A stretch of 25,988 nucleotides of DNA, from positions 1 through 25,988 of IMG/VR virus record IMGVR_UViG_3300031841_000059. The stretch is one strand, 5' to 3'. The notes under the pieces were generated by a model that had not been told where the DNA came from, made no database searches, and worked only from the letters and a program-made list of their open reading frames with translations. Shown in pieces: positions 11,331-24,338 of the stretch. The position numbers and the translations under genes are program-made. Positions within the stretch are counted from its first letter, which is position 1. Each line of letters starts with the position of its first letter. The stretch is from a virus.

Positions 11331-11723
11331 TTAAAAGTCTACACAGTATTCCATTCTAGTTGTTTCTAGAACTGTGTCTTTATCTTGCCAAGTTGGAACA
11401 TAAACACATTCTATTTGTGTATATCCATTTTCTTTAGCGTAGTTAAATCTATTATTTCCTATAGCACAACGATACTTTAAATTTGTGTCTACAAGTTTGT
11501 TAGGGTCTTGTCTGTGTGGTTGCTCTTGGCAATAAACTAAAAAAGTTTCTTGTGTCCAAACTATAGGAGGCCAAAGCATTCCATTGTCATCTAGTGATTT
11601 CTTTATAGCAGCTAAAAAGTTTCTATCTAATAAAGCAGCTTCATCCATTTGTGAATATACTTCACTTATGTTGAATACCCTAACGTCCCAATTAGATAAT
11701 TTATTTTTAGCCTTGAGTATCAT
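11331..11723 (-). CDS. ParB/sulfiredoxin-like fold protein in the virion module
   Basis: This 130-aa protein has an N-terminal segment AIKKSLDDNGMLWPPIVWTQ (residues 39-58) and later AIGNNRFNYAKENGY (87-101). The first matches the ParB N-domain pattern of a helix followed by G-x-x-x-P-P-I-x-V. The second matches the (D/I)GxxRxxAAxxxG pattern, with GNNRF in place of the usual GxHR. I infer a ParB/Srx-like domain. Such domains can bind nucleotide or DNA, but there is no HTH and no partner ParA. No Shine-Dalgarno is visible before the ATG, and it comes just after a terminator-like hairpin, so expression may be low. The role is unknown. Confidence 0.65.
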   Translation of the reverse strand: MILKAKNKLSNWDVRVFNISEVYSQMDEAALLDRNFLAAIKKSLDDNGMLWPPIVWTQETFLVYCQEQPHRQDPNKLVDTNLKYRCAIGNNRFNYAKENGYTQIECVYVPTWQDKDTVLETTRMEYCVDF

Positions 11724-12270: not shown

Positions 12271-13344
12271 TTACGCTGCGTTATACTTGGCAGTAACGAT
12301 GCCTTCTGGACGAAGGATCTTACGACCGTATAGGTGCATACCACGAACGATGTCAGCAAAGCTGTCTGGATCACGGTAAGTTTCAGTCTTATTGATTTGC
12401 TCCGCAGTTGCGACAGCAGAATCATGACCTGCAACAATAGCACCATAGTTAGAGTTTTGGTTTGCAGTACCAGTTGTACCTGGTCCTGTACCAACTGACG
12501 GTAGGTTGCTTGAAGTGTATACACGGAAGCCGTGGAAGTTGTTCAAGACAAGACCGTTACGTAGTCCACCTGATTCACCGAAGTCTGCGTTGAATAGACG
12601 TGAGTCTTCATCACGTAGAATCTCCATGAATACTGGGTCAACTACAAGCCACCGTCCGTCTTTATCAACTTGTTGTTGATCAAGCAGACGAGCCATACGA
12701 GCTACAACCATTGCTGGTGAAGCTGTGGCTGTTGGCAGAGCTGTTGCACCTGGCAAACGAGCTGCTACTGGAATCGAGTGATCACCAGCAGAAGTTGTTG
12801 TAATGTTGCCGAAGTCACCTTTGTTCAACTTCATGCTTGAAAGCAATTCGTCTGAACCTGCGGTTGAAACAGCTTTTGTACCGTTTACTTGGTCGTTTAC
12901 AGTGTCAGCTGCAGAATGTAGTGCAGACTGTTTGTATCCTGACAAGTAACCTAATACTTCTTGGTCGTACTGATCCGCTAGGCGATATGCTGCACGGTTA
13001 GTAGCCAAGTCCATGAAGTTCACATGTGAGTGAGCTTCTTCAATGTCGTCGATTTTAAACGCAAAGTAGTTTGCTTTATCTACGACAAGAGAGAAATCTT
13101 CATCATCAAGATCTTGTGCAGTGATTTGTGTACCACGTGCATAAGAGCTAACTGAGATTTCAGGTTCTTTGATAATTTTAACGGTATCACCTTGAGCAGC
13201 GATCTCGCCAAAATAATCTGAGTTGGTGATGTCACCTGCAACCGTAGACTTACGGAATGCAAGCTGCACCTTTTTGGAATAGATTACGGATGAAAAGTTA
13301 CCGTTTGGTAAGTTGCCGTAACCCCCTGCTGTTGTAAAAGCCAT
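12271..13344 (-). CDS. Major capsid protein
   Basis: I chose ATG 13344 (MAFTTAGGYG, 357 aa) because GGAGG lies 8 nt upstream. The earlier in-frame ATG at 13359 would use no such site and would place the ribosome binding site inside the coding sequence. The protein follows the scaffold gene, has its own promoter and long leader, and has the look of an HK97-fold coat protein of podoviruses and their relatives. Features include an N-terminal arm, E-loop-like segments (YARGTQITAQDLDDEDFSLV), a helical spine (LADQYDQEVLGYLSGYKQ) and a P-domain-like end (MHLYGRKILRPEGIVTAKYN). Segments such as RWLVVDPVFMEILRDEDSRL resemble P22/N4-type coat proteins. No protease cleavage domain is fused to it. Confidence 0.85.
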   Translation of the reverse strand: MAFTTAGGYGNLPNGNFSSVIYSKKVQLAFRKSTVAGDITNSDYFGEIAAQGDTVKIIKEPEISVSSYARGTQITAQDLDDEDFSLVVDKANYFAFKIDDIEEAHSHVNFMDLATNRAAYRLADQYDQEVLGYLSGYKQSALHSAADTVNDQVNGTKAVSTAGSDELLSSMKLNKGDFGNITTTSAGDHSIPVAARLPGATALPTATASPAMVVARMARLLDQQQVDKDGRWLVVDPVFMEILRDEDSRLFNADFGESGGLRNGLVLNNFHGFRVYTSSNLPSVGTGPGTTGTANQNSNYGAIVAGHDSAVATAEQINKTETYRDPDSFADIVRGMHLYGRKILRPEGIVTAKYNAA

Positions 13345-13352
13345 GATTAAAT

Positions 13353-13357
13353 CCTCC
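13353..13357 (-). promoter_or_regulatory. Shine-Dalgarno of the major capsid gene (sets the start)
   Basis: On the minus strand a perfect GGAGG lies 8 nt upstream of ATG 13344. It is the strongest ribosome binding site in this part of the window and rules in favour of the second in-frame ATG over the first (13359). Confidence 0.85.
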
Positions 13358-13383
13358 ATGATATTTGGCTTCGGGTTACAAAG

Positions 13384-13588: not shown

Positions 13589-14533
13589 TTATCTGGCTTT
13601 GCCAGAAACATCGTATATAAATTTGCCAGAACGAATAGCTTTATTAATTTCATCTGCTCGTTCTTCAAATTCTTTATCAGACATTCTTGAAACCTCTGAT
13701 TCACGAATTGCGTCATTAGCATCATTTACGTCCACTTGCGTTTTGCTACGCTTAGTTACAGGACTAGCTGCTGCTTTTGTTTTTTCTTTCTTTGCTGCAG
13801 AAGTTAAACCTTTGTCTGACTTATACAAATCAATAACTCGTATTACAGACTTAGGATCATCTGAGTTTTCGTACAGTGCATCCTGTACCCACTTAGGCTG
13901 TTCATCAGCCCAATCATGAAACTCATCTGATGCACGTAACGTATCAAAGTCTTTGTGTGACTTACGAATTACGTTTTCTGCTTTTACACGAGTGGCTTCT
14001 GCATGGGCATCATCCAGTTCTTTAAGCCGACCTTCAGCTTTAGAAAACATTTCTTGTGCTTTCTTTGCAGCAATTGTTTCCACAATACCAGCTACATCAG
14101 GATACTTTTTAGCCCACTGTTCAATATCTTCACTAGACTTTGGTGGAACAATGTTCTCGCCCTTCATACGCTCTTCCAACGCAGATAGACGTTCTTTCCA
14201 CTCTTTTTCTTTTTCGTTCATATGGCGACGAAGATCACCATAACGTTTCTTAAACGACTTTTCTTCACGGCTCAGGTTTGAGTCGTCTTCCGATGCTTCG
14301 GGTTCCGCTTTGGCTTCTTCTTGTTCGGTATCACTTGCATCCGATACTTCGGCTGTCTCAGATCCTTCGCCATCGGATTCTTCTTCCTCGACCTTTTCAC
14401 CACGAGCCTCTGCTTCTAGTTTAGCAATCTCTGCTTCTTCTTCCTCAAGACGTTTACGTTTACGTTCATAGTTATAACCACGGTCAACAAAACCCGCAGT
14501 CTTAGTTGGTTCAACTTCTGCTAGTTCAGGCAT
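13589..14533 (-). CDS. Capsid scaffolding protein
   Basis: This 314-aa, highly charged, helical protein sits directly upstream of the major capsid gene, the usual scaffold position. Residues 20-50 are Arg/Lys/Glu-rich coiled coil, residues 50-93 are a strongly acidic Glu/Asp/Ser linker, and residues 95-130 are again coiled coil. The C-terminal third has two more helical regions separated by Lys-rich segments (KKEKTKAAASPVTKRSK). Extreme charge, coiled coils and few hydrophobic residues are typical of phage scaffolds, which guide coat assembly and then leave the shell. The start is supported by AAGGAG 6 nt upstream of the ATG. There is no visible protease domain. Confidence 0.8.
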   Translation of the reverse strand: MPELAEVEPTKTAGFVDRGYNYERKRKRLEEEEAEIAKLEAEARGEKVEEEESDGEGSETAEVSDASDTEQEEAKAEPEASEDDSNLSREEKSFKKRYGDLRRHMNEKEKEWKERLSALEERMKGENIVPPKSSEDIEQWAKKYPDVAGIVETIAAKKAQEMFSKAEGRLKELDDAHAEATRVKAENVIRKSHKDFDTLRASDEFHDWADEQPKWVQDALYENSDDPKSVIRVIDLYKSDKGLTSAAKKEKTKAAASPVTKRSKTQVDVNDANDAIRESEVSRMSDKEFEERADEINKAIRSGKFIYDVSGKAR

Positions 14534-14580: not shown

Positions 14581-14784
14581 CTATCTTGATCCTAAGCCAC
14601 CACGCTTGGGATTAATCTTTGTTGGTTGTCCTACCGTAATTGCTTTACCTAATTCTGGTCCAACAAGTTTTGTTAGAACATTTCCTACTGGTGTACCTAT
14701 CATACGTCTTACAGTTTCTTTCTCTTCTTCAGAAAGATCACCATGACGTTTTGCTATAGTGTTCTTATATTCGTCTAGTTCCAT
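14581..14784 (-). CDS. 67-aa phage protein, function unknown
   Basis: The gene overlaps the end of the methyltransferase gene by 10 nt and has a good GAGGG site 6 nt upstream of its ATG. The protein has a charged helical first half (LDEYKNTIAKRHGDLSEEEK), a central hydrophobic helix-like part (GNVLTKLVGPELGKAI) and a basic Gly-rich tail (KINPKRGGLGSR). I do not recognise the family. It is probably co-translated with the methyltransferase and precedes the scaffold gene by 47 nt, so it could be a minor head or core component. Confidence 0.7.
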   Translation of the reverse strand: MELDEYKNTIAKRHGDLSEEEKETVRRMIGTPVGNVLTKLVGPELGKAITVGQPTKINPKRGGLGSR

Positions 14785-15470
14785 AGTTTACCCTCTAATA
14801 CTAACAGCTCTTTTCCAGCAAACGTAGGATAGTCTACTATTTTGTAACGTTTAAACTGTGAACCAAAAAGCCCTATGATAAGGTTTTTGTGAGGGGATAT
14901 ACAATGGTATTTATCACCTGTACTTGGTTCTACATAAGACCATTGCAACGCATCGAAGCTAAACTGACCACCCATAGGTTCTGGTGTACTCATAGGTATC
15001 TTATCAAACAACTTCCAGTTATTGTGGTAAGACAGTATTATAGATCCATGCTTTGCAGTGAGGTCTATCATTTTCTGAAAAAAGTCTAGTACCTTTTCCA
15101 AAGATGGTTGGTGTGAATAACCAAACCAAAAGTTTGTTACTAAGTCAAATTTCTTTTTGGTTCTCCAACTTAGTATGTTTGCAACAGAATAATCTACATC
15201 ATACTCTGTATCTTCTTTATGTTGATCCATCATCAACTTAGATTTATCAACACCTAACCTTTTAAAGTTACCAGAAGCTTTTCGCAAATGATAACCAGTA
15301 CCACAGGCAACATCGCACCAAGATTCGTGGTCGTAGTAATCCATCACCTTTTCTATAACTGTTATTTCAAAATTAACATCAGCTTTTTGATTTGGGTGAT
15401 GGATGTATCTTTCTTCGTATATTTCTACTAGGTTAGGGTTGTCATATGGTTCTTTAGACAACTTCTCCAT
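14775..15470 (-). CDS. Class I SAM-dependent methyltransferase
   Basis: The 231-aa protein has a class I methyltransferase core. Motif I is WCDVACGTGYHL (residues 51-62, SAM-binding glycine loop), then an acidic residue at the end of strand 2 (GVDKS, D75), VANILSW (96-102), a motif IV-like FDLVTNFWF (108-116), and SIILSYHN in strand 5. There is no target recognition domain and no DPPY-type motif of DNA amino-methyltransferases, so the substrate is open: small molecule, protein, sugar or nucleic acid. It overlaps the preceding gene by 17 nt and the next by 10 nt, so it is coupled to the virion operon. Its place between portal and scaffold is unusual and suggests modification of a virion component or a product delivered with it. 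Confidence 0.8.
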   Translation of the reverse strand: MEKLSKEPYDNPNLVEIYEERYIHHPNQKADVNFEITVIEKVMDYYDHESWCDVACGTGYHLRKASGNFKRLGVDKSKLMMDQHKEDTEYDVDYSVANILSWRTKKKFDLVTNFWFGYSHQPSLEKVLDFFQKMIDLTAKHGSIILSYHNNWKLFDKIPMSTPEPMGGQFSFDALQWSYVEPSTGDKYHCISPHKNLIIGLFGSQFKRYKIVDYPTFAGKELLVLEGKLWN

Positions 15471-17913
15471 TTTCCCTTATAAACTTGGTGTCACCACCTA
15501 CTACGTCAAAAACTTTCATCCAGAAGTTCTTTAACGGAGAGTATATCACACCATGTTTGTTTTGTCCATAGTAATATTTACCATAAGACACAAGAGGATC
15601 TGCAAAAGTTTTTGTGATAATCCACTTAAATGTTTTTGACTTACGCATTAGTGGTACAAGTACTTCAGCCATACGATAGTATCCACGACGATTGCGATCA
15701 GTCATATATTCATCACGGTATCTACGTACTACTTCATCCATAGTACCGTTACCATAGCGAGCTTCTAGCATGATGAAGCAGCATCCACCGCCTCCACCAC
15801 CAGAGGAGCCTCCACCAGAGGAACCACCGCCTCCTCCTCCTCCGCCACCGCCAGAGGAACCACCACCTTCATTAGAACGAGCACTGTCACGTTCTGATAC
15901 AAGATCGTTTAGTTCTGATGTCCATGCACCACCAGAGTCTTGAAGTGCTTGGTTAATGTCTGCTTGAATTTGTGACTCTGTTCTACCAGAAGATGCAGTG
16001 TTAGTAGTTGTACTTGAAGATCCGCCACCAGAACTTCCACCACCTGAGCTGCCGCCTCCTGATGTACCTGATTCAAATTCATCCCAGAAGTCATCATCAG
16101 ATAAGTCAGATTGAATTAGTGCTGTTTCTGCAGCCTGACTTCCACCATAAGCTTGAGTGCCTGTAGCTACTGTTGGTATGCTGTAATCATCATCGTCATC
16201 TCTACTTGAACCTGAATAAACAGGTGTATCTACAGAATCGCCTGGGTCTTCGTAGGTATATGTTGTAGTTTCTTCTGGTGAAGTTAGGTCAACTGTTTCC
16301 GTAATTGTTGGGTCGTCTGTACCCGTACCACCAAGAGGTTGCTCAAAGATAGCTTGAGTAGCTGCTAAGTCATCTTGAATATCTTTAGCAAGATTAGGAT
16401 CAGCAGAAGCTTCGCTTGATGTGGGAACATTTTGAGTTGGATCAACGGTAGTAGGCCCACCTTCGTCAACCTGTGCAACATTAGTGTCTTCAATAACACC
16501 TGTAGTAGGGCCATCTGGTCTGCTTGGTGGACGTATTGTATCTTCACCTGGTTTAAATACTTTTACTCCATCATCTGTAACTTCAAGTAATTCACCCCCT
16601 AAAGTAGTTCCTACGTCATTTTCGTAATCATATACAATAACCCCTGTTTCAGGAGCAGTTGTTTGTTCTCCTGTTATAGAATCAGTGTATGTTTCTCCAG
16701 GTCGAATATATGTCGCAGTAGTACCACTATCTTCATCAGATGCTACTTCTTCTATTTGTTTATAAAAATCTTCATCTGATTTAAAGATTGGATTACCGTT
16801 TACGTCTTTAGAGTCTCTACCCAAAGACCAGTCTACTTGAGTAGAATTAATTTGTTTTGCTAACTGATCACCATTAATAAATTCTTTTGGTAAAAGATCT
16901 AGGTTATTTGTCTTAACATAGTTATTCCAAAGTGATCGTAATCTTTCTACTTCAGCAAATTCTTCTGGGGTTTGTGCATTTGCTTCTAGTATAGCAATGT
17001 TTGCAGCTACTTGTGCTGCTGTAGTTGCTTGTTGAAGTTTACCAATAGCACCACCTGACAAAAGTTTTTCAATAAAGTTTCTGTTATCTGGATCTAGTGC
17101 AGCTTCAGTTCCTGCAACAATATCTTCAAAATTTTCTGTACCATCACCCTTATACCCAAAGTCGTCCATCCAAGCTGCACGTTGCTCATCAGTAACTTCA
17201 GGAACTTCTGGACCACCTTCTCCAGAACTTGGAAGAATGCTTTGATCAATACCACAACCTTCTGTAATAAGTTGATCATACATATCTTGGTCAGCAGGTA
17301 GTTGTAAAGTGTTTACACGACCATCAGGACAGTACAGTGTTACTGGTGTTTGATCTCCACCTGTATCTCCATTGCCATCACCTGTACCATCACCTGTTGG
17401 TTCTGGGTCTGGTGTTTCCCAACTAAATGCACCGCTATAACGTGTAGGAGTTGTAGCAAAAGATCTACTACCAAAACCACCGCCATCATAACCTTGACGT
17501 TGTTGATACATATTAGCTTGTTGTGCATAGGGATCAGCTGGCGGCATCTGTTGAGTCATCATTCCACCCATAGCTGCACCTACCATGCTTTGCATAGCTT
17601 GTGTTTCTTCTGGTGAAAATCCAGTTGCCTGTGGTCCACCTGGAGGTACAGGATCACCACCGATACGACCATTAGCAGCCATATCTTTTAAACCACCTTT
17701 ACCTTGGTTACGCAGATCTTCAAAAAACTTTACGCCATAATAACGAACAATATCAGCAGGAACAACGTATTCACCATCAGACAATTGCGCTGGGATGTCG
17801 TCACGTACTTCGTTTGCGTTAGAGCCTACAGGAACCTTATTGCCCGATACAGGATCTACTTGTTGTCCATCTGTCTTAAGACCACCTTGTGGTGGCATCA
17901 TATTGTTCCGCAT
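15454..17913 (-). CDS. Low-complexity virion-associated protein with CFI-box-like C-terminus
   Basis: This 819-aa protein has three parts. Residues about 36-86 carry a motif I know from many marine phages, VRDDIPAQLSDGEYVVPADI, then VRYYGVKFFEDLR and NGRIGG. The middle is acidic and Thr/Asp/Gly-rich with little predicted fold. Two Gly/Ser linkers follow, the second at about 681-710 being almost pure Gly/Ser. The last 109 residues (711-819) start CCFIMLEARYGNG and contain VVRRYRDEYM and YYRMAEVLVPLM. This matches the CFI-box C-terminal domain pattern (CFIxTAxYG...VxxLRxFRDxxL). The function of that domain is not established. GGGAG lies 8 nt before the ATG. It follows the ART-like gene by one base and overlaps the methyltransferase gene by 17 nt. 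A virion or ejected role is inferred from context. Confidence 0.75.
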   Translation of the reverse strand: MRNNMMPPQGGLKTDGQQVDPVSGNKVPVGSNANEVRDDIPAQLSDGEYVVPADIVRYYGVKFFEDLRNQGKGGLKDMAANGRIGGDPVPPGGPQATGFSPEETQAMQSMVGAAMGGMMTQQMPPADPYAQQANMYQQRQGYDGGGFGSRSFATTPTRYSGAFSWETPDPEPTGDGTGDGNGDTGGDQTPVTLYCPDGRVNTLQLPADQDMYDQLITEGCGIDQSILPSSGEGGPEVPEVTDEQRAAWMDDFGYKGDGTENFEDIVAGTEAALDPDNRNFIEKLLSGGAIGKLQQATTAAQVAANIAILEANAQTPEEFAEVERLRSLWNNYVKTNNLDLLPKEFINGDQLAKQINSTQVDWSLGRDSKDVNGNPIFKSDEDFYKQIEEVASDEDSGTTATYIRPGETYTDSITGEQTTAPETGVIVYDYENDVGTTLGGELLEVTDDGVKVFKPGEDTIRPPSRPDGPTTGVIEDTNVAQVDEGGPTTVDPTQNVPTSSEASADPNLAKDIQDDLAATQAIFEQPLGGTGTDDPTITETVDLTSPEETTTYTYEDPGDSVDTPVYSGSSRDDDDDYSIPTVATGTQAYGGSQAAETALIQSDLSDDDFWDEFESGTSGGGSSGGGSSGGGSSSTTTNTASSGRTESQIQADINQALQDSGGAWTSELNDLVSERDSARSNEGGGSSGGGGGGGGGGSSGGGSSGGGGGGCCFIMLEARYGNGTMDEVVRRYRDEYMTDRNRRGYYRMAEVLVPLMRKSKTFKWIITKTFADPLVSYGKYYYGQNKHGVIYSPLKNFWMKVFDVVGGDTKFIRENGEVV
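15784..15873 (-). repeat. Gly/Ser simple-sequence tract
   Basis: This stretch encodes about thirty residues of almost only Gly and Ser, including a run of ten Gly, from repeated GGN/TCN-type codons. It acts as a flexible tether directly before the CFI-box-like domain. On the DNA level it is a GC-rich island in an AT-rich gene and a likely site of replication slippage. Confidence 0.85.
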
Positions 17914-17914
17914 G

Positions 17915-20161
17915 TTATTTACTCCCTGCGAATAGTTCGTTCATTTGTTTATCTATCACGCCACCTTTGGCTAACCTTAAATCAGGGTTGGTTATTTTCT
18001 TAGGATCAAATCCAGCTCTTATATCTCGTAACACTGCATTAGAACCTTTTGGTCTATCTGTTAACATAATATAACTTATGCTTTCTACATCCTCTACATC
18101 GTTGACATAAGGTATGTGGGTATAGCCTTGTTTAGCTAATTCACGTCTTATAAACTGGACAGCTTTTAACCTATCTTTTTGTTTAAACCTACCACCCTTT
18201 TCAACACCAGATATTTTTTCTGCCTGTCTATTTATAATTTTATCAAAGTCTGACTCTGCTAGATTATAAGCACCTGCAAGTTCATTTCTATCTATACCAA
18301 CTAGGTTGGCTAATACTTTTGCTGTGGCTGGTTTATCTAACCTAGCCCTAAGCTCCATCGTAAAGCCACTTTGAGCTATGCCAGAACTTCTTTCTGCAGC
18401 TGCTCTTGCTGTACCTACATGAGTTCCTAACAAATCTTGAGCAGGTCCGCCATAAATATCACCTGATTTTAGTAAAGAACCTAATCTGTCAGCTTCTTTA
18501 AACTCAGTAAACTCTTCTGAAAAAGGTCTGGTCTTTCTGGACTGTGCTCTTGATGTATGATATACAACATCTTTAAATCCAAGATCAACTGCTCTGTCTA
18601 TTCTTTCTTGTTCTTGTTTGGTTCTAGGTGGCATTGTCTTTTCGTTGACAAAATAACCAGAAGCTTTTCTAGAATATTTATCTCCGTCTATTGCCCTTGG
18701 AAGTTCTCTTTCTGTAATAGGATTGTTTCTATAACCAAGAGTTAATGCAGTATCTTGAACCAGTCTAATAGTTTGATCAGCATCTAAGTTTGAGCCTTTT
18801 GCTTCGTTTCTAATACTTTCTAAATACCTACTGTACTTGTCGTTTTGAGCTTGCTGACCTTCTTTAAATAAAGTTTTAGTAGTAAAATCTGGAGACGGAG
18901 GTAAGTTTTTAGCAAACTGTATAATTATTTCTGGGCCAAGTTCTTCAAGTATCTTGTTTGTATTTGATGCATTATCGTGTAAAAAACTTCCAGGCTTGTA
19001 TAACTTAATATTTTTTTTGTTTAAATGATAAAGTTGTTCTAAATATTCATCGTCTTTTAAAACACCTGCAGAAACACCTGCCATTATTTCATCTATAGTA
19101 GGAAAACTATTTTTCTTTTTCATCTTTTCTAGTGCAGATATATCACTAGCCAAGCTGTCTATAGGATCATAATCATCTGATCCTGAAATGACAGGACTAT
19201 ACCCTTGTTCTTTTTTCTTTACTACTCTGGGTAAAGTCTTTGCAGATTGTACTGCAGTATCTACTGCATCATCTAATTGACTTAAACTCTTAGCACCAGC
19301 TGCACCAAGAAAAGCATCTGGCATAGAATAAATATCACGTTCAAATCTTCTTTGTGACGAATCACTTTTAGTTATAAGTTCACCTGCAGTGCCTATAACT
19401 GCTTTTGCCGCAGCATCTACAAGCTCTATTCCGCCAAGACCCATATCTTTAAAATAGTCTACAGCACGTACATAACCTTTGTACAACTCAGGAGAGTTAG
19501 CATCAACCTTTGTTACACCTGCATCTGCAAAACGGTCTTTAGCTGATTGCCAAGAGTCTGCTGCAAAACGTAATGGGTTCCAAGTATCTTTAGGTTTAGT
19601 AGGAGTAGTGTCGTTATCTGCAGAAGGTAACATTGACAAACCACCCTCATTAAAAACACCATGTTCACTAGGGTTCTTAAGGTAGTTCAGAAAACCTTTA
19701 CCTTTTTCAATGTAAGGCTCTACTCTTCTTTTTATCGGTCCTTTGGGTTCTGGTTCCTCTTGCATAGGAAACTCTTCTGAAAAACCTTTCTTTGAAGCTT
19801 CTGCATCAAACATTGTACGAGAACGCCACTTTGCATACTCAACTGCTTTCTCTTGACTACTAAATACAGGAAGCTCTTCACCAGTAATAAAGTCAACAGG
19901 ACCACCCTTACTAAGTTTGTTCCTAGCCTCTACTACCTTTTTAAATACTTCTTCATCAGATAATCTTTTACCTTGACCATCTATTGTAGGTAAAGTTGCC
20001 CAACCAGTACCCCAAGGAACTGTAGTTGTAACCTCAGAATAACTACCACCTTTTTTACCAGTAATCTCACCAGTGTGATCTATCCAGACAGGCCTACCCC
20101 TTACAGTACGTTTTTCTGTTCTAGATCTAGGTCGTGTCTTTGGTCTAGGACTCTGATCCAT
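17915..20161 (-). CDS. Large protein with ADP-ribosyltransferase-like C-terminal domain
   Basis: The 748-aa protein has a basic N-terminus (RPKTRPRSRTEKR). A domain at about residues 45-118 (WATLPTIDGQGKRLSDEE, then LPVFSSQEKAVEYAKWRSR) follows, of a type recurrent in phage polyvalent and virion proteins. A long charged middle comes next. The C-terminal domain at about 519-722 has VVYHTS with H535, LLGTHVGTARAAAER (577-591), IPYVNDVEDVESISYIML (683-700) and AGFDPKK (716-722). This order matches the ART-PolyVal-like ADP-ribosyltransferase domains of phage polyvalent proteins: a yHxT strand, a GxHxGT-xxAAxxR helix, then SYIxxxxxxI and FDP. I infer that it may be ejected and modify a host protein. 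The catalytic glutamate cannot be fixed by eye, so activity is uncertain. It follows the 71-aa gene with a 17-nt overlap. Confidence 0.7.
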   Translation of the reverse strand: MDQSPRPKTRPRSRTEKRTVRGRPVWIDHTGEITGKKGGSYSEVTTTVPWGTGWATLPTIDGQGKRLSDEEVFKKVVEARNKLSKGGPVDFITGEELPVFSSQEKAVEYAKWRSRTMFDAEASKKGFSEEFPMQEEPEPKGPIKRRVEPYIEKGKGFLNYLKNPSEHGVFNEGGLSMLPSADNDTTPTKPKDTWNPLRFAADSWQSAKDRFADAGVTKVDANSPELYKGYVRAVDYFKDMGLGGIELVDAAAKAVIGTAGELITKSDSSQRRFERDIYSMPDAFLGAAGAKSLSQLDDAVDTAVQSAKTLPRVVKKKEQGYSPVISGSDDYDPIDSLASDISALEKMKKKNSFPTIDEIMAGVSAGVLKDDEYLEQLYHLNKKNIKLYKPGSFLHDNASNTNKILEELGPEIIIQFAKNLPPSPDFTTKTLFKEGQQAQNDKYSRYLESIRNEAKGSNLDADQTIRLVQDTALTLGYRNNPITERELPRAIDGDKYSRKASGYFVNEKTMPPRTKQEQERIDRAVDLGFKDVVYHTSRAQSRKTRPFSEEFTEFKEADRLGSLLKSGDIYGGPAQDLLGTHVGTARAAAERSSGIAQSGFTMELRARLDKPATAKVLANLVGIDRNELAGAYNLAESDFDKIINRQAEKISGVEKGGRFKQKDRLKAVQFIRRELAKQGYTHIPYVNDVEDVESISYIMLTDRPKGSNAVLRDIRAGFDPKKITNPDLRLAKGGVIDKQMNELFAGSK

Positions 20162-20360
20162 TTATTTTTTCTCGCAATTTTAAAAGGCTACGAAGAGCAC
20201 GTATTTCACCTTGGAGTCGATAGACTTCATCAAGTTCTCTAGATTGTTCAAGAGCTACATGAGTAAAAGCAATCCTTGATGCTATCTCTTCTATATAAGG
20301 TGTGTAAAACTCTGGATTATTTACAAAAGGTTTTAATGTATTGTTCACGACTAGCTTCAT
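20145..20360 (-). CDS. 71-aa helical phage protein, function unknown
   Basis: The start overlaps the portal stop (ATGA) and the end overlaps the next gene by 17 nt, so the gene is translationally coupled at both ends. The protein is predicted to be all helix with a heptad-like C-terminal half (LDEVYRLQGEIRALRSLLKL). Its position right after the portal is where some phages encode small head-assembly or accessory proteins. I recognise no family. Confidence 0.7.
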   Translation of the reverse strand: MKLVVNNTLKPFVNNPEFYTPYIEEIASRIAFTHVALEQSRELDEVYRLQGEIRALRSLLKLREKINGSES

Positions 20361-22495
20361 TGCATTGTAGGTTCATCACCAGTATTGCCTGAGAAGCCCT
20401 GTTCTCCTGGCTGAGGTGCTGTTCCAGTTCCTATAGTACCACCCCCTGCGCCACTAGTATCCTGTACTTGTGCGCCAGCAGGAGCACCCTGTGCACCTTC
20501 TTGAGGTGGAGCACCCTCTGGACCAGGAACTCCTGGTTGTGGTTCAGGTGGATTTGCTGCTTGGAATTGTTTTAGTATTTCAGCTTGTATAGCTGCCTCT
20601 GACATATTGTTGCCAACCTTGTCTGGATCAAGATCCATAGACTTAGCGATTTCACGAACAATATAATCCATACGTGCAAATGGCGCAAGCGCTGGGTTAG
20701 ATACGACCTGCATAAATTGCATCAAGCGTTGGCTACGTACTTCGTTAGCCATCAAGCTTTCTGTACCACGAGCTTTAACTTCAAGATCACCTTTGGTTTC
20801 TTTGTCATAGTTAAACTGCATGTTAAAGTTAAAAAAGGCTTTACCTAGTGGTGCTAGTAGATAGTCGTCAATGTTTTTAACTACGTTTCTAATAGAACCA
20901 TTAGCAGCAGACATAAGCATAGAAATACCTGAAGCAGTCCGACCAACGCCGCTGACTCCAGTTTGCCCATGAGCGAACGAAGGAAAACCTGTGCTTTCAT
21001 CTGCTAGTACTCTTGCCTTATCAAACATCTGCATGTTTTCGTTTGATACGTTGGGGAACTTAGTGCCAAAGATGGCTTGACCAGGTGCCCCTCCTTGTCT
21101 CCGAAACACTTTGCCTGGATACACGGAGAGGTCTTGCCCTGGGACGAGATTAGTCTCGTCTATCTCAATAAGCAAGTTGCCAGATAAGGCAGCGTTATCA
21201 ACTGCCATACGCATAAAACCATTCATAAGTGTTTGGGTATCGTCCATGTTTTCTGCAATACCAACACCAAAGATACTGTAAGGATTCATTTCATAAGGTG
21301 CAGCAAAGTACGGTATATACGCTGGAGTAAATGGATTCATTACAAGACGTAATACTTGTCCATTACATACCCATGTATTTACACTAACTTGTTCAGAGTC
21401 TTCCAACTCTTCTGGTATTTCTACACCTTGATTCTTAATAATCTCTGTATCAACAAAACCCCAGAACTCTAGAACTTCAAAACGATCTGCATGGTCTTGT
21501 TCGGTGTTGTCTTCCATGACATGCTCCCACCACTCTTTGTTATAGCTTTCGCCAAGAGATAGTGCATTGTCAATCGCATTCTCACGGAAGTACGGACGGT
21601 TTTTCAAAGAACGTAGTTGTGAGCGTGACATCTTGTGTCGTTCAACTACATACTCTGCTTCTTCCATTGTAGCTGCATCTGGGTCTGGATAGAAGTTCCA
21701 GATAGATACAGATGATGTTTGTGGAATTGTTTTGAATACTGGTGAGTATTCCCCTTCGTCATTCCAATTAGGGTATTCTTTATCTATTGCAAACGGACCC
21801 TTCATGATACCTGTACCAAACAGGGCAGCTTCAAAAGCTGCAGCACGTAGGTGTTTCTTTGCGTGAGATTCTTCTAGTTGATCATGGATTTTCTTTTCCA
21901 TTTTCTTGGCAGCTATTTCTGCAGGATAAATCTGTACAGAGGTTGGGCTACCATTGGTTCCAGGTTTTACATCGTCCATGATTGGAGCAAGTTTTGCTTT
22001 CATGGCACCAAGACGTTCTTGATACTCTTGATATGTTTCGCCTGGAAGTAGTTCTTCCATTGTGTCTGGTTGTTCAGCTACAGCTTTACGAATCTCTGGA
22101 TTCGTTTCAAAGTTTACTACTTCTTCAATACCTTCAGGAAGTTTAGTAGGATCAATAGTAATTGGAAACTTATTACCACCAAACAACACATCAGCAATCT
22201 GTCCGTAAGCTGCTAATACTTTCGTCTTAGTAACTTTGACAAAAACTTGCGAACGTTCTGTAGAAGTAAATTGTACATCTGGTCCATAAATACCACGATA
22301 GTTACGGTAAGCCTGAATCCAACGTTCTTCATCAAGTTGCCTTGCTGTTTCAGCTTTGTTATACTTTTCTTTAACAAACTGAACAATCTCACCAGCTTGT
22401 GGATCATGATACAAATCCTTTTCAACATCCTCAATTGACGAAGATGTTTCATCATCCATGATCATTTCGTTTTCAAAGGTTTCATCTTCTTCCAT
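20357..22495 (-). CDS. Portal protein (P22-like)
   Basis: At 712 aa this is the size of P22-type portals rather than of the shorter T7 gp8-type portals. It follows the large terminase gene by 9 nt. Visible parts are an acidic N-terminal arm, a helical region (ARQLDEERWIQAYRNYRGIY), strand/turn segments (YAEYVVERHKM-like motif at EAEYVVERHKMSRSQLRSLK), WNFYPDPDA, and a conserved central IPYFAAPYEMNPYSIFGVGI. The crown/barrel part near the C-terminus ends in a Pro/Gly/Gln-rich low-complexity tail. IWNFYPDPDATxxEEAEYV and the GxGxAENMxDTQTLxN region are hallmarks of phage portals of this type. AAGGA lies upstream of the ATG. The portal forms the dodecameric DNA gate that the terminase and the gp11-like adaptor bind. 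Confidence 0.9.
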   Translation of the reverse strand: MEEDETFENEMIMDDETSSSIEDVEKDLYHDPQAGEIVQFVKEKYNKAETARQLDEERWIQAYRNYRGIYGPDVQFTSTERSQVFVKVTKTKVLAAYGQIADVLFGGNKFPITIDPTKLPEGIEEVVNFETNPEIRKAVAEQPDTMEELLPGETYQEYQERLGAMKAKLAPIMDDVKPGTNGSPTSVQIYPAEIAAKKMEKKIHDQLEESHAKKHLRAAAFEAALFGTGIMKGPFAIDKEYPNWNDEGEYSPVFKTIPQTSSVSIWNFYPDPDAATMEEAEYVVERHKMSRSQLRSLKNRPYFRENAIDNALSLGESYNKEWWEHVMEDNTEQDHADRFEVLEFWGFVDTEIIKNQGVEIPEELEDSEQVSVNTWVCNGQVLRLVMNPFTPAYIPYFAAPYEMNPYSIFGVGIAENMDDTQTLMNGFMRMAVDNAALSGNLLIEIDETNLVPGQDLSVYPGKVFRRQGGAPGQAIFGTKFPNVSNENMQMFDKARVLADESTGFPSFAHGQTGVSGVGRTASGISMLMSAANGSIRNVVKNIDDYLLAPLGKAFFNFNMQFNYDKETKGDLEVKARGTESLMANEVRSQRLMQFMQVVSNPALAPFARMDYIVREIAKSMDLDPDKVGNNMSEAAIQAEILKQFQAANPPEPQPGVPGPEGAPPQEGAQGAPAGAQVQDTSGAGGGTIGTGTAPQPGEQGFSGNTGDEPTMQ

Positions 22496-22504
22496 GCTAG
22501 TTCC

Positions 22505-24064
22505 TTAATAACCAAACGTTGAGTCTGACATTTGAAATCCAGATCTTTGTGTACTGGCATCAAAGTCAAATATGCTGCTACGTGGTCGAGTCATTATACC
22601 ATAACGTAAAGCATCATACAAGTGATCTTCTGCTTTTGTGTCTACATCTTCTGGATTATTTTTATCCAGAGGTATGGCTGGTAGTTGCGAAATAATATTA
22701 TTGCAGTTGTTAAAAAATACTAGTCTGGGTTCTTCAGTAAACTCATCAATCTGCAATCTTCTATGTAGTTCGTTTTTACCAGATACACGAGAACCTTTAG
22801 ATCTGTCAGAAGGTCTCCAACGACATCCCTTCATAATCATTTGTTCAGCCAATGACGGGCCAGTATCACCACGGTTGTGCCACAAACTAGAGTCGAGGAC
22901 ACCATACCGTATCTTTTCATCACCCTCTATTTCTAGTATCATGTCAGCTAAATCTGTAGCTGTAACCTTTGATACGTAAAGTTCTCTGTAGACAACCAAC
23001 TGTTCTGCTGGAGTGACAGTAAACCATACAACACCAGTGTGAGAACCATAACCGTAGTCGCAAGCTCTAAACCTAACCCAGCTTTTTGGTATATCATAAG
23101 GCTCTACCACATGTACGTTACGGTTAAACTCAGGGAATGCTGCTCCCTCGTTAATATCCCAGTCACCTTCTAGTAACTGTCTTCGTTGGTGTTCTGGAAG
23201 CGAAAGCAAGTTTGCTTCATACATTCCATCATCAGCTAGATAAGGATTATCGAATAGGGTAGCAGGTATGAACCTACGTTTAAATAATGGCTCACCCTCT
23301 CTCGAATGTCCTTTCGGCCAAGAAATAATTTCACCGCTGTCTGTGTCTGTCGCCCAAAAAGCATTGTTTGGTGTCTCTGGATCTATAAAGGTTTTCTTTA
23401 CCCACTGGTGGCCAGGACCACCTGGGTTACTTGTTGCCCTCATATACAAGGGTAGCCCACTAGCTTTGGTTGTACGAAGACGTGACCTCATATAGTTCCA
23501 AGGATAGGGTGTAGGCCATTGCGTTAATTCGTCAAAACCAATCCAGTTAAATGCTTGTCCTTGATAGCGCATGACATCATCATCACGATCAAGGTAAGAC
23601 ATCCAGAGTGTAGCTCCACTAGGGGCTACCCAAGTTTTATCTCGTTCCATAAACTTGATACCAGGAATTGCTTTGGGATATAACTGTTTAGAAACAGAGA
23701 TAAGTTCTCTAAGCTCTTCAGTGCTTCTACGTACAAGCAACATTCGAGCATTTGGATTGTTCAGGTATCTAACGGGATCGGCAATCATTGCGTATGACTT
23801 ACCGCCACCTGCAGATCCTCCGTATAAGACCTCCTGTTCTGTTGATGCTAGGAAATCTGTCTGTGGACCAGGGTTAGGTTCAAAGATTATTTCTCTTTGT
23901 ACCTGCTCTACTTCAACTGGCTCGTGCTTCGGGGTTGCTGGTGTCAACTCTACTTCTTGCACCGAGTCTTTGGGCTTCGAGCTTTTCCGCCTTTTCTGCT
24001 GCCTCTTTGTACCTTTCGGCATAGAAACGTTGGACTGAAGCTTCTTTCTTACGCTTGTGCTCAA
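22505..24064 (-). CDS. terL: Terminase large subunit (DNA-packaging ATPase/nuclease)
   Basis: The 519-aa protein has a P-loop ATPase with Walker A GGSAGGGKS (residues 82-90), Walker B FNWIGFDE (172-179) and a TSNPGG coupling motif (211-216). The RNase H-like nuclease domain shows three acidic motifs, ACDYG (D336), GVLDSS (D391) and AEDHLYDALRY (D480, D484). It cuts and pumps phage DNA through the portal. The start is open. TTG 24064 has AAGAGAG 6 nt upstream. ATG 24022 (MPKGTKRQQK) has no ribosome binding site. Either choice overlaps the HTH gene out of frame by more than 100 nt, which is unusually long for this window. The ATPase core is unaffected. Confidence 0.93.
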   Translation of the reverse strand: MSTSVRKKLQSNVSMPKGTKRQQKRRKSSKPKDSVQEVELTPATPKHEPVEVEQVQREIIFEPNPGPQTDFLASTEQEVLYGGSAGGGKSYAMIADPVRYLNNPNARMLLVRRSTEELRELISVSKQLYPKAIPGIKFMERDKTWVAPSGATLWMSYLDRDDDVMRYQGQAFNWIGFDELTQWPTPYPWNYMRSRLRTTKASGLPLYMRATSNPGGPGHQWVKKTFIDPETPNNAFWATDTDSGEIISWPKGHSREGEPLFKRRFIPATLFDNPYLADDGMYEANLLSLPEHQRRQLLEGDWDINEGAAFPEFNRNVHVVEPYDIPKSWVRFRACDYGYGSHTGVVWFTVTPAEQLVVYRELYVSKVTATDLADMILEIEGDEKIRYGVLDSSLWHNRGDTGPSLAEQMIMKGCRWRPSDRSKGSRVSGKNELHRRLQIDEFTEEPRLVFFNNCNNIISQLPAIPLDKNNPEDVDTKAEDHLYDALRYGIMTRPRSSIFDFDASTQRSGFQMSDSTFGY

Positions 24065-24338
24065 GTTTAACTCTCTTATATAAACCTACGTGGGAAAGGT
24101 ATCTACCAGAAGTTTCACTTAACCAAGCAGCTACTTCTCTATAGCTATACTGCTTTAAATGTTTTTTAGCCTGTTCAAAAAGCTCTAGCTCTTCTGGAAT
24201 TGGTTGTAGTATATCACAATCATCGGGGTCTTGTCTATAACCAAATGGCACAAACCTTCCGATTCTTACTATCGGTTCCCACTCCCATTCACCATCTTCT
24301 TTTTGAGGTTTAGGTAATTTCCAAGTTTTAGTTTTCAT
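23913..24338 (-). CDS. HTH DNA-binding protein beside the terminase
   Basis: The 141-aa protein has FVPFGYRQDPDD and ILQPIPEELELFEQAKKHLK segments, then a helix-turn-helix-like region YSYREVAAWLSETSGRYLS (64-82) followed by SHVGLYKRV and a long basic/acidic helix. This arrangement is seen in marine phages directly before the large terminase. The HTH suggests recognition of a packaging site or an accessory terminase function, which is inference. Its ATG overlaps the preceding gene's stop by 11 nt. Its 3' end overlaps the terminase gene by up to 152 nt in another frame, so its C-terminal helix and the basic N-terminus of the terminase are encoded by the same DNA. Confidence 0.75.
   Translation of the reverse strand: MKTKTWKLPKPQKEDGEWEWEPIVRIGRFVPFGYRQDPDDCDILQPIPEELELFEQAKKHLKQYSYREVAAWLSETSGRYLSHVGLYKRVKLEHKRKKEASVQRFYAERYKEAAEKAEKLEAQRLGARSRVDTSNPEARAS

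Follow-up and report, generated by a model that had tools for sequence, protein, structure and literature searches.

The ejection proteins of podoviruses (T7 gp14-16, P22 gp7/gp16/gp20 and those of SU10) are established as proteins that are packaged in the virion and ejected from it together with the DNA, some of them having peptidoglycan-cutting domains (PMC8954989, PMC9509320). A survey of polyvalent proteins described ADP-ribosyltransferase (ART), metallopeptidase, PF07486 hydrolase and LPD-type domains encoded near virion genes and predicted these proteins to be packaged and injected (Iyer et al. 2017; PMC5512222). Here we describe a block of five genes between the portal gene and a scaffold-like gene in the virus record IMGVR_UViG_3300031841_000059, whose whole 25,988-base stretch is referred to below as the window. 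The block spans about 5.8 kb (positions 14581-20360, all on the minus strand), and on balance we think it probable that it is a virion cargo slot of the polyvalent/ejection type, i.e., one holding a large protein with an exchangeable payload, which uses its constant parts to join the particle and is delivered along with the DNA. The genomic pattern is read from the sequence itself, and packaging, ejection and activity are what we infer from it.

Judged by its genes, the window is part of the genome of an HMO-2011-type podovirus, since its portal, terminase, coat and scaffold-like genes are homologous to those of that group. Portal, coat and TerL also stand in the same gene order, and the portal is 72.9% identical to that of Roseobacter phage CRP-9, 71.7% to that of CRP-13 and 65% to that of HMO-2011, with CRP-2 falling within the same 65-73% range. 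Phages of this type are further recognized by a DNA polymerase with an inserted partial DnaJ domain (PMC9038755); the replication module falls outside the 26-kb fragment. One other contig, IMGVR_UViG_3300032086_000016 (locus L002), is near-identical over the block.

As gene order and homology indicate, the block is not a one-off insertion; the slot is common to all relatives and its contents vary. The same slot occurs in about 70 metagenomic loci and in the cultured HMO-2011-type phages (Puniceispirillum phage HMO-2011, Roseobacter phages CRP-1 to CRP-738 and Sinorhizobium phage phiM6), which share with the window the portal, coat and scaffold-like genes and their order, and which carry a small helical gene and a large protein in this place. 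The small and large open reading frames (ORFs) between portal and scaffold measure 63 and 1208 amino acids (aa) in CRP-13, 62 and 1395 aa in CRP-9, 65 and 647 aa in CRP-2, 58 and 762 aa in HMO-2011 and 71 and 812 aa in phiM6, and CRP-345 has an ORF of 1246 aa there. A large protein, usually after a small ORF, is also found in CRP-1 (where the small ORF is unannotated), CRP-3, CRP-207, CRP-212, CRP-235, CRP-603, ctYwJ313 and RHph_N3_13, while in HTVC104P and HTVC033P the large protein is there but no small ORF is annotated. Vibrio phage CHOED, a more distant relative, has a 76-aa small ORF alone between the portal and the gene in the scaffold position, the large protein being missing. A preliminary description of this DNA had called the block inserted, a view given up here because HMO-2011-type relatives all have a large protein between portal and scaffold; the late virion-gene context that it proposed is borne out by that same position. 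Compared with the isolates, the window alone splits the large protein into two ORFs, its ART-like payload was found in no cultured relative, and its CFI-type C-terminal domain is found among isolates in CRP-13 and CRP-345 only.

In transcription order, the block begins directly after the portal with a near-constant 71-aa helical protein (20145..20360); a homologue (31-97% identity) takes this position in nearly every locus whose sequence covers it. It is followed by a 748-aa payload gene (17915..20161), which comparison with loci L003 and L031 divides into a constant N-terminal domain, a variable payload and a constant C-terminal tag, and by an 819-aa protein (15454..17913), made up of a constant segment, a variable low-complexity middle and a C-terminal domain. 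The last two genes encode a 231-aa class I S-adenosylmethionine (SAM) methyltransferase (14775..15470; Methyltransf_25 at 34.3 bits, above the cut-off of 27, as had been claimed) and a 67-aa helical protein (14581..14784). All five ORFs announced in the preliminary description are where it placed them, on the minus strand, and its tight junctions are confirmed: from the portal onward the spacings are -4, -17, +1, -17 and -10 nucleotides (nt), negative values being overlaps, with a gap of +47 nt before the scaffold gene. Because homologous co-oriented ORFs occur in relatives, all five are genes and not chance ORFs.

At the level of sequence comparison, close relatives swap the payload between conserved flanks. 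Locus L003 is 97% identical to the window in TerL, portal, the 71-aa protein and coat, and 93% in scaffold. Within the 748-aa gene, residues 20-176 are 88% and residues 728-748 are 62% identical between the two, and the middle is unrelated, that of L003 containing FFHELQHAAQ, with a metallopeptidase-like look and a weak LPD23 match. In locus L031, whose portal is 93% identical, a 196-aa protein consists of the two ends of the 748-aa protein only, the payload being absent. The nearest locus by constant segment (L145, 84%) has a HEIQHA-type payload ending in GGAVDKQMDELFAGSI.

The constant segment lies at residues 20-100 of the 819-aa protein (17614..17856, minus strand), contains RDDIPAQLSDGEYVVPADI and occurs in at least 586 viral contigs with the consensus DPVSGNxVPxGSxxxEVRDDIPAxLSxGEYVVPADV (alignment A5). 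Among about 70 non-identical loci, the stretch that precedes it within one ORF is 7 to 1633 aa long; L180, L185, L197, L199-L201 and L204 have, instead of a fused payload, a separate upstream ORF ending in GG. In fused relatives the payload meets the constant segment at the consensus GGxxMxxQMxMxF, of which the GG forms the only near-invariant columns in 61 payloads, and it is in exactly this motif that the 748-aa protein terminates (its C-terminal tag GGVIDKQMNELFAGSK, 17918..17965, minus strand). Since loci L139 and L140 fuse the ART-like domain of the 748-aa end directly to the constant segment, the 748-aa and 819-aa proteins are a split version of one protein.

What the slot carries is often enzyme-like. 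Of 65 non-redundant payloads, 16 have an HExxH-type motif, where shuffling predicts 0.055, and 12 have an E[IVL]QSD motif. Pfam and NCBIfam searches over 61 payloads returned LPD23 in nine (best E 7e-10), TIGR02594 in seven, Phage_L5_gp82 in six, SprT-like in two, and Hydrolase_2, NLPC_P60 and DUF6782 in one each. Among isolates, Hydrolase_2 matches the slot proteins of CRP-2 (E 1e-11) and CRP-3 (E 6e-16) and, more weakly, those of phiM6 and RHph_N3_13; CRP-9 has TIGR02594 (E 1e-6), CRP-738, CRP-3 and CRP-212 have DUF7178, and a methyltransferase-like stretch is also present in CRP-738 and CRP-3. Enzyme-like, often exchanged payloads in such a slot are characteristic of proteins that are packaged and delivered along with DNA, and domains of these types, when encoded close to late genes, are predicted by the polyvalent-protein survey to be packaged (PMC5512222). 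The window shares with polyvalent proteins the gene position near late virion genes, and differs in that slot domains are swapped in one defined place between constant N- and C-terminal ends. In contrast to slot relatives with LPD23 or HExxH, the 748-aa window protein has no Pfam or NCBIfam match, LPD included, and at most one recognized enzyme-like domain.

That domain is the ART-like one, at residues 520-745 of the 748-aa protein (17927..18604, minus strand). In an alignment of six sequences (A4), the motifs VYH, LGxHVG, YxNxVED and SxIML are invariant, as are residues H16, H62, E171 and D172, and from these motifs the conserved payload domain may be an ART, as a candidate assignment. Such a reading would share with T4 Alt and other injected phage ARTs the idea of a packaged, injected ADP-ribosyltransferase (PMC5512222), although the window domain lacks a sequence or fold match to them. 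A PDB sequence search with it gave no match, and no relatives were found in cultured phages and plasmids.

At the other end of the split protein, after a Gly/Ser linker, stands a 109-aa domain (CCFIMLEARYG...FIRENGEVV; 15457..15783, minus strand), which recurs in 169 viral contigs and is 73-99% identical across unrelated phages. In all 78 non-identical carriers it sits at the extreme C terminus, begins with CCFI wherever the start is covered, and usually follows a Gly/Ser/Asp-rich linker. When carriers of sufficient length were clustered without the domain, they fell into nine groups (53 HMO-2011-type carriers, a group of six, a group of five within or beside PHROG 358/877 proteins, and six smaller groups, of which two may belong to larger ones as divergent members). 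Its 34 representatives align without gaps and with 51 invariant columns, and at HMO-2011-type loci it is more conserved than the portal in 18 of 19 comparisons, than the scaffold in 22 of 23 and than the coat in 17 of 21. In most pairs, identity is 95-99% at second and 42-60% at third codon positions, which argues that selection at the protein level maintains the domain; recent horizontal transfer as the cause of the conservation is rejected for most pairs on the same figures, although a few pairs do look recently exchanged (L014, L015).

The CFI-box-like end named in the preliminary description is real, although the match is weak: CFI_box_CTERM (NCBIfam NF041770) scores 16.8 bits (E 0.0043) against a cut-off of 40. 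The phage form resembles that family in its C-terminal position after a Gly-rich stretch and its Cys-Phe-Ile start, and 27 of the 34 members match it weakly, yet it stays far below the curated cut-off. A scan of 84,980 bacterial and archaeal genomes, covering those contigs that two short peptide patterns had picked out, found the 109-aa phage form in none and so gave no sign of a bacterial origin, and the PDB held no relative by sequence or by fold. AlphaFold2 (AF2) models the domain as five helices (pLDDT 81), and among predicted viral structures the CRP-13 homologue is the sole significant match, one 433-aa protein reaching TM 0.72 at E 0.05. In other slot proteins the linker leads to different terminal domains that start with Cys (ICTELY in HMO-2011, CYVATA in CRP-1, CFLTTA in ctYwJ313, CVIATHA in L145), and further ones have a basic GGLMKKKK tail; common ancestry of the HMO-2011, CRP-1 and ctYwJ313 domains with the CFI type is not demonstrable at hhalign probabilities of 5-47%.

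Phages that lack HMO-2011 core genes can also have proteins ending in the 109-aa domain, by or in PHROG 358/877 proteins (L065, L066, L067, L068 and L088); in L068 its carrier, of 1366 aa, is itself a PHROG 358 match. In another phage group (L106, L107, L109, L111 and L113-L116) it is found at 73-74% identity on proteins of 311-420 aa, and the carrier in L106 adjoins a PHROG 3287 virion structural protein.

The C-terminal domain has company. Of the 59 HMO-type loci with the CFI domain, 31 have a methyltransferase directly behind it, whereas the 64 loci without the domain have none in this place (Fisher 2e-14, relatedness ignored). Its ATG lies inside the last codons of the C-terminal-domain sequence, with a 17-nt overlap from which one locus differs by 3 nt, and its alleles diverge down to 29% identity. 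An obligatory pairing of the two was considered and rejected, 28 of the 59 CFI loci having no methyltransferase. Relatives of the slot methyltransferase (40-55% identity) occur in other viral contigs without the C-terminal domain (L242, L244 and L246-L254), and CRP-9, which has no slot methyltransferase, carries after its coat gene a gene annotated as a different, shorter methyltransferase (L038, 17499-18032).

The 67-aa protein has a homologue in 48 of the 57 CFI loci with enough flank and, outside the CFI type, in L145, CRP-1 (E 3e-22) and perhaps HTVC033P (E 0.003); in HMO-2011 (GU557055.1, L040:14538-14735), an unannotated 67-aa-like ORF lies between the large slot protein and the scaffold (E 1.8e-6). 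All loci with a 67-aa homologue have a globular C-terminal domain in the slot protein. The gene is absent from 52 loci with other tails, the basic tail included, where the gap between large ORF and scaffold is 40-111 nt, and ctYwJ313 is an exception in having a C-terminal domain with no partner detected. By this co-occurrence with C-terminal-domain types, the 67-aa protein is a candidate partner of the domain. The five genes had been described as one set, which they are not: the 71-aa gene and the N-terminal segment of the 819-aa protein are near-constant, the 748-aa payload is swapped or lost, the methyltransferase is tied to the CFI-type domain alone, and the 67-aa gene tracks globular C-terminal domains. 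Loss of one gene at a time in relatives, named earlier as an observation that would refute the idea, does occur in part, in a nested and rule-bound rather than random way.

We regard it as possible, in a tentative way, that the 109-aa domain is a phage-wide handle (an anchor, docking or delivery signal) on unrelated virion proteins, with the 67-aa protein as partner and often a methyltransferase of its own, and that together with the payload slot it forms a modular cargo-loading system of marine phages. If the handle reading is true, the logic would be comparable to that of polymorphic toxins, in which the trafficking parts are fixed and the warheads exchangeable.

Under the cargo-slot reading, the constant parts would place the large protein in the virion, close to the portal, while the head assembles, and at infection the protein would exit together with the DNA. 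The payload of some relatives would then cut peptidoglycan and aid entry, while other payloads (the ART-like one in the window, HExxH peptidases elsewhere) would act on the host envelope or on host proteins. Payloads would be exchanged among close relatives by recombination between the constant ends, and the 67-aa protein, less certainly the methyltransferase, would serve the C-terminal domain as partner or modifier.

Several observations count against this reading. The ejection proteins of T7 and P22 occupy other gene-order positions: the slot lies between portal and scaffold and not downstream of the tail genes as theirs do, and slot proteins have no detectable sequence match to podovirus ejection proteins, with which we would have them share a role. 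No virion proteomics for the HMO-2011 group was found in its genome papers (PMC9038755, PMC6918029, PMC6256558). About 16 loci have no payload in the same ORF as the constant segment, which makes the payload dispensable. The ART-like end proposed in the preliminary description stands as a conserved domain and not as an identified ART: the ART models of Pfam give no match up to E 10, and AF2 on the six sequences gave a model of pLDDT 52 with nothing significant in a PDB fold search, which from a low-confidence model is weak evidence; ART therefore stays a motif-level label. Lastly, residues 37-321 of the 819-aa protein match tape-measure PHROG 3547 (E 2.3e-10), a match of 285 residues on 220 of the 1767 profile positions that could rest on a low-complexity motif.

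That tape-measure match, together with the peptidoglycan-hydrolase domains in the slot and a LysM domain in the slot protein of L021, is what one would expect if the large protein were plain entry machinery, an internal core or tape-measure-like protein to which a peptidoglycan-cutting domain is an optional addition and of which no payload acts in the host cytoplasm. We hold this to be unlikely, given the LPD23, ART-like, HExxH and methyltransferase-like payloads, which have no obvious peptidoglycan role and fit the polyvalent effector repertoire. The payloads could also be unpackaged products of accessory late genes, acting late in the infected cell (in anti-defence or superinfection exclusion) from an operon that tolerates cargo. 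Their dispensability, their swapping among close relatives and the occurrence of methyltransferase relatives in other phages and other contexts would agree with this, but most relatives join payload and constant segment in one polypeptide, and the constant segment is in the slot of nearly every member, payload-less ones included, so that we give this explanation little credence. That the constant segment and the 67-aa and 71-aa proteins are head-assembly helpers, aiding portal and scaffold assembly and leaving before maturation, would suit the position between portal and scaffold, the small helical proteins and the 71-aa homologue kept in CHOED without a large protein, but is highly improbable because an assembly factor has no reason to carry enzyme payloads and peptidoglycan hydrolases.

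The genes that flank the slot are likewise on the minus strand. The upstream flank is the portal protein (20357..22495), of the SU10_portal family (PF23899, 100.2 bits), and the downstream flank is the scaffold-like protein (13589..14533), which matches PHROG 13678 (E 1.6e-52, annotated as of unknown function) and precedes the coat gene in all relatives. The coat protein (12271..13359) matches PF25209 (37.6 bits), PF11651 (25.3 bits) and PHROG 267, major head protein (E 2.9e-63). A promoter and terminator scan found fewer promoter-like sites than in shuffles (17 versus 28), and no promoter is claimed. The 519-aa TerL ORF (22505-24064) has a TTG start and overlaps a 141-aa ORF (23913-24338) by 152 nt; its true start is probably further downstream because relatives are annotated with a shorter TerL. 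Between the coat and tail genes, a 130-aa protein (11331-11723) has a ParB/sulfiredoxin-like look (RCAIGNNRFNYAKENGY), and positions 1-1595 hold no convincing complete minus-strand gene, probably because a gene runs off the fragment end there.

Polyvalent and ejection proteins are a known kind; what is new is a defined slot with constant ends, and with it an unusually conserved C-terminal domain accompanied by a co-occurring small partner and a methyltransferase. The 109-aa domain, which the clustering places on at least nine groups of N-terminal carriers, makes a clear target, and co-occurrence names a candidate for its partner gene. HMO-2011-type phages rank with the dominant viral groups of the sea, and through the constant ends of the slot the cargo that they may bring in at entry can be catalogued and tested directly. 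Isolates with differing slot contents on the same host, FZCC0023, are at hand in CRP-2 (a hydrolase), CRP-9 (TIGR02594) and CRP-13 (the CFI-type domain and methyltransferase). In this family, the slot is the site at which phages exchange the proteins that they may carry into the host.

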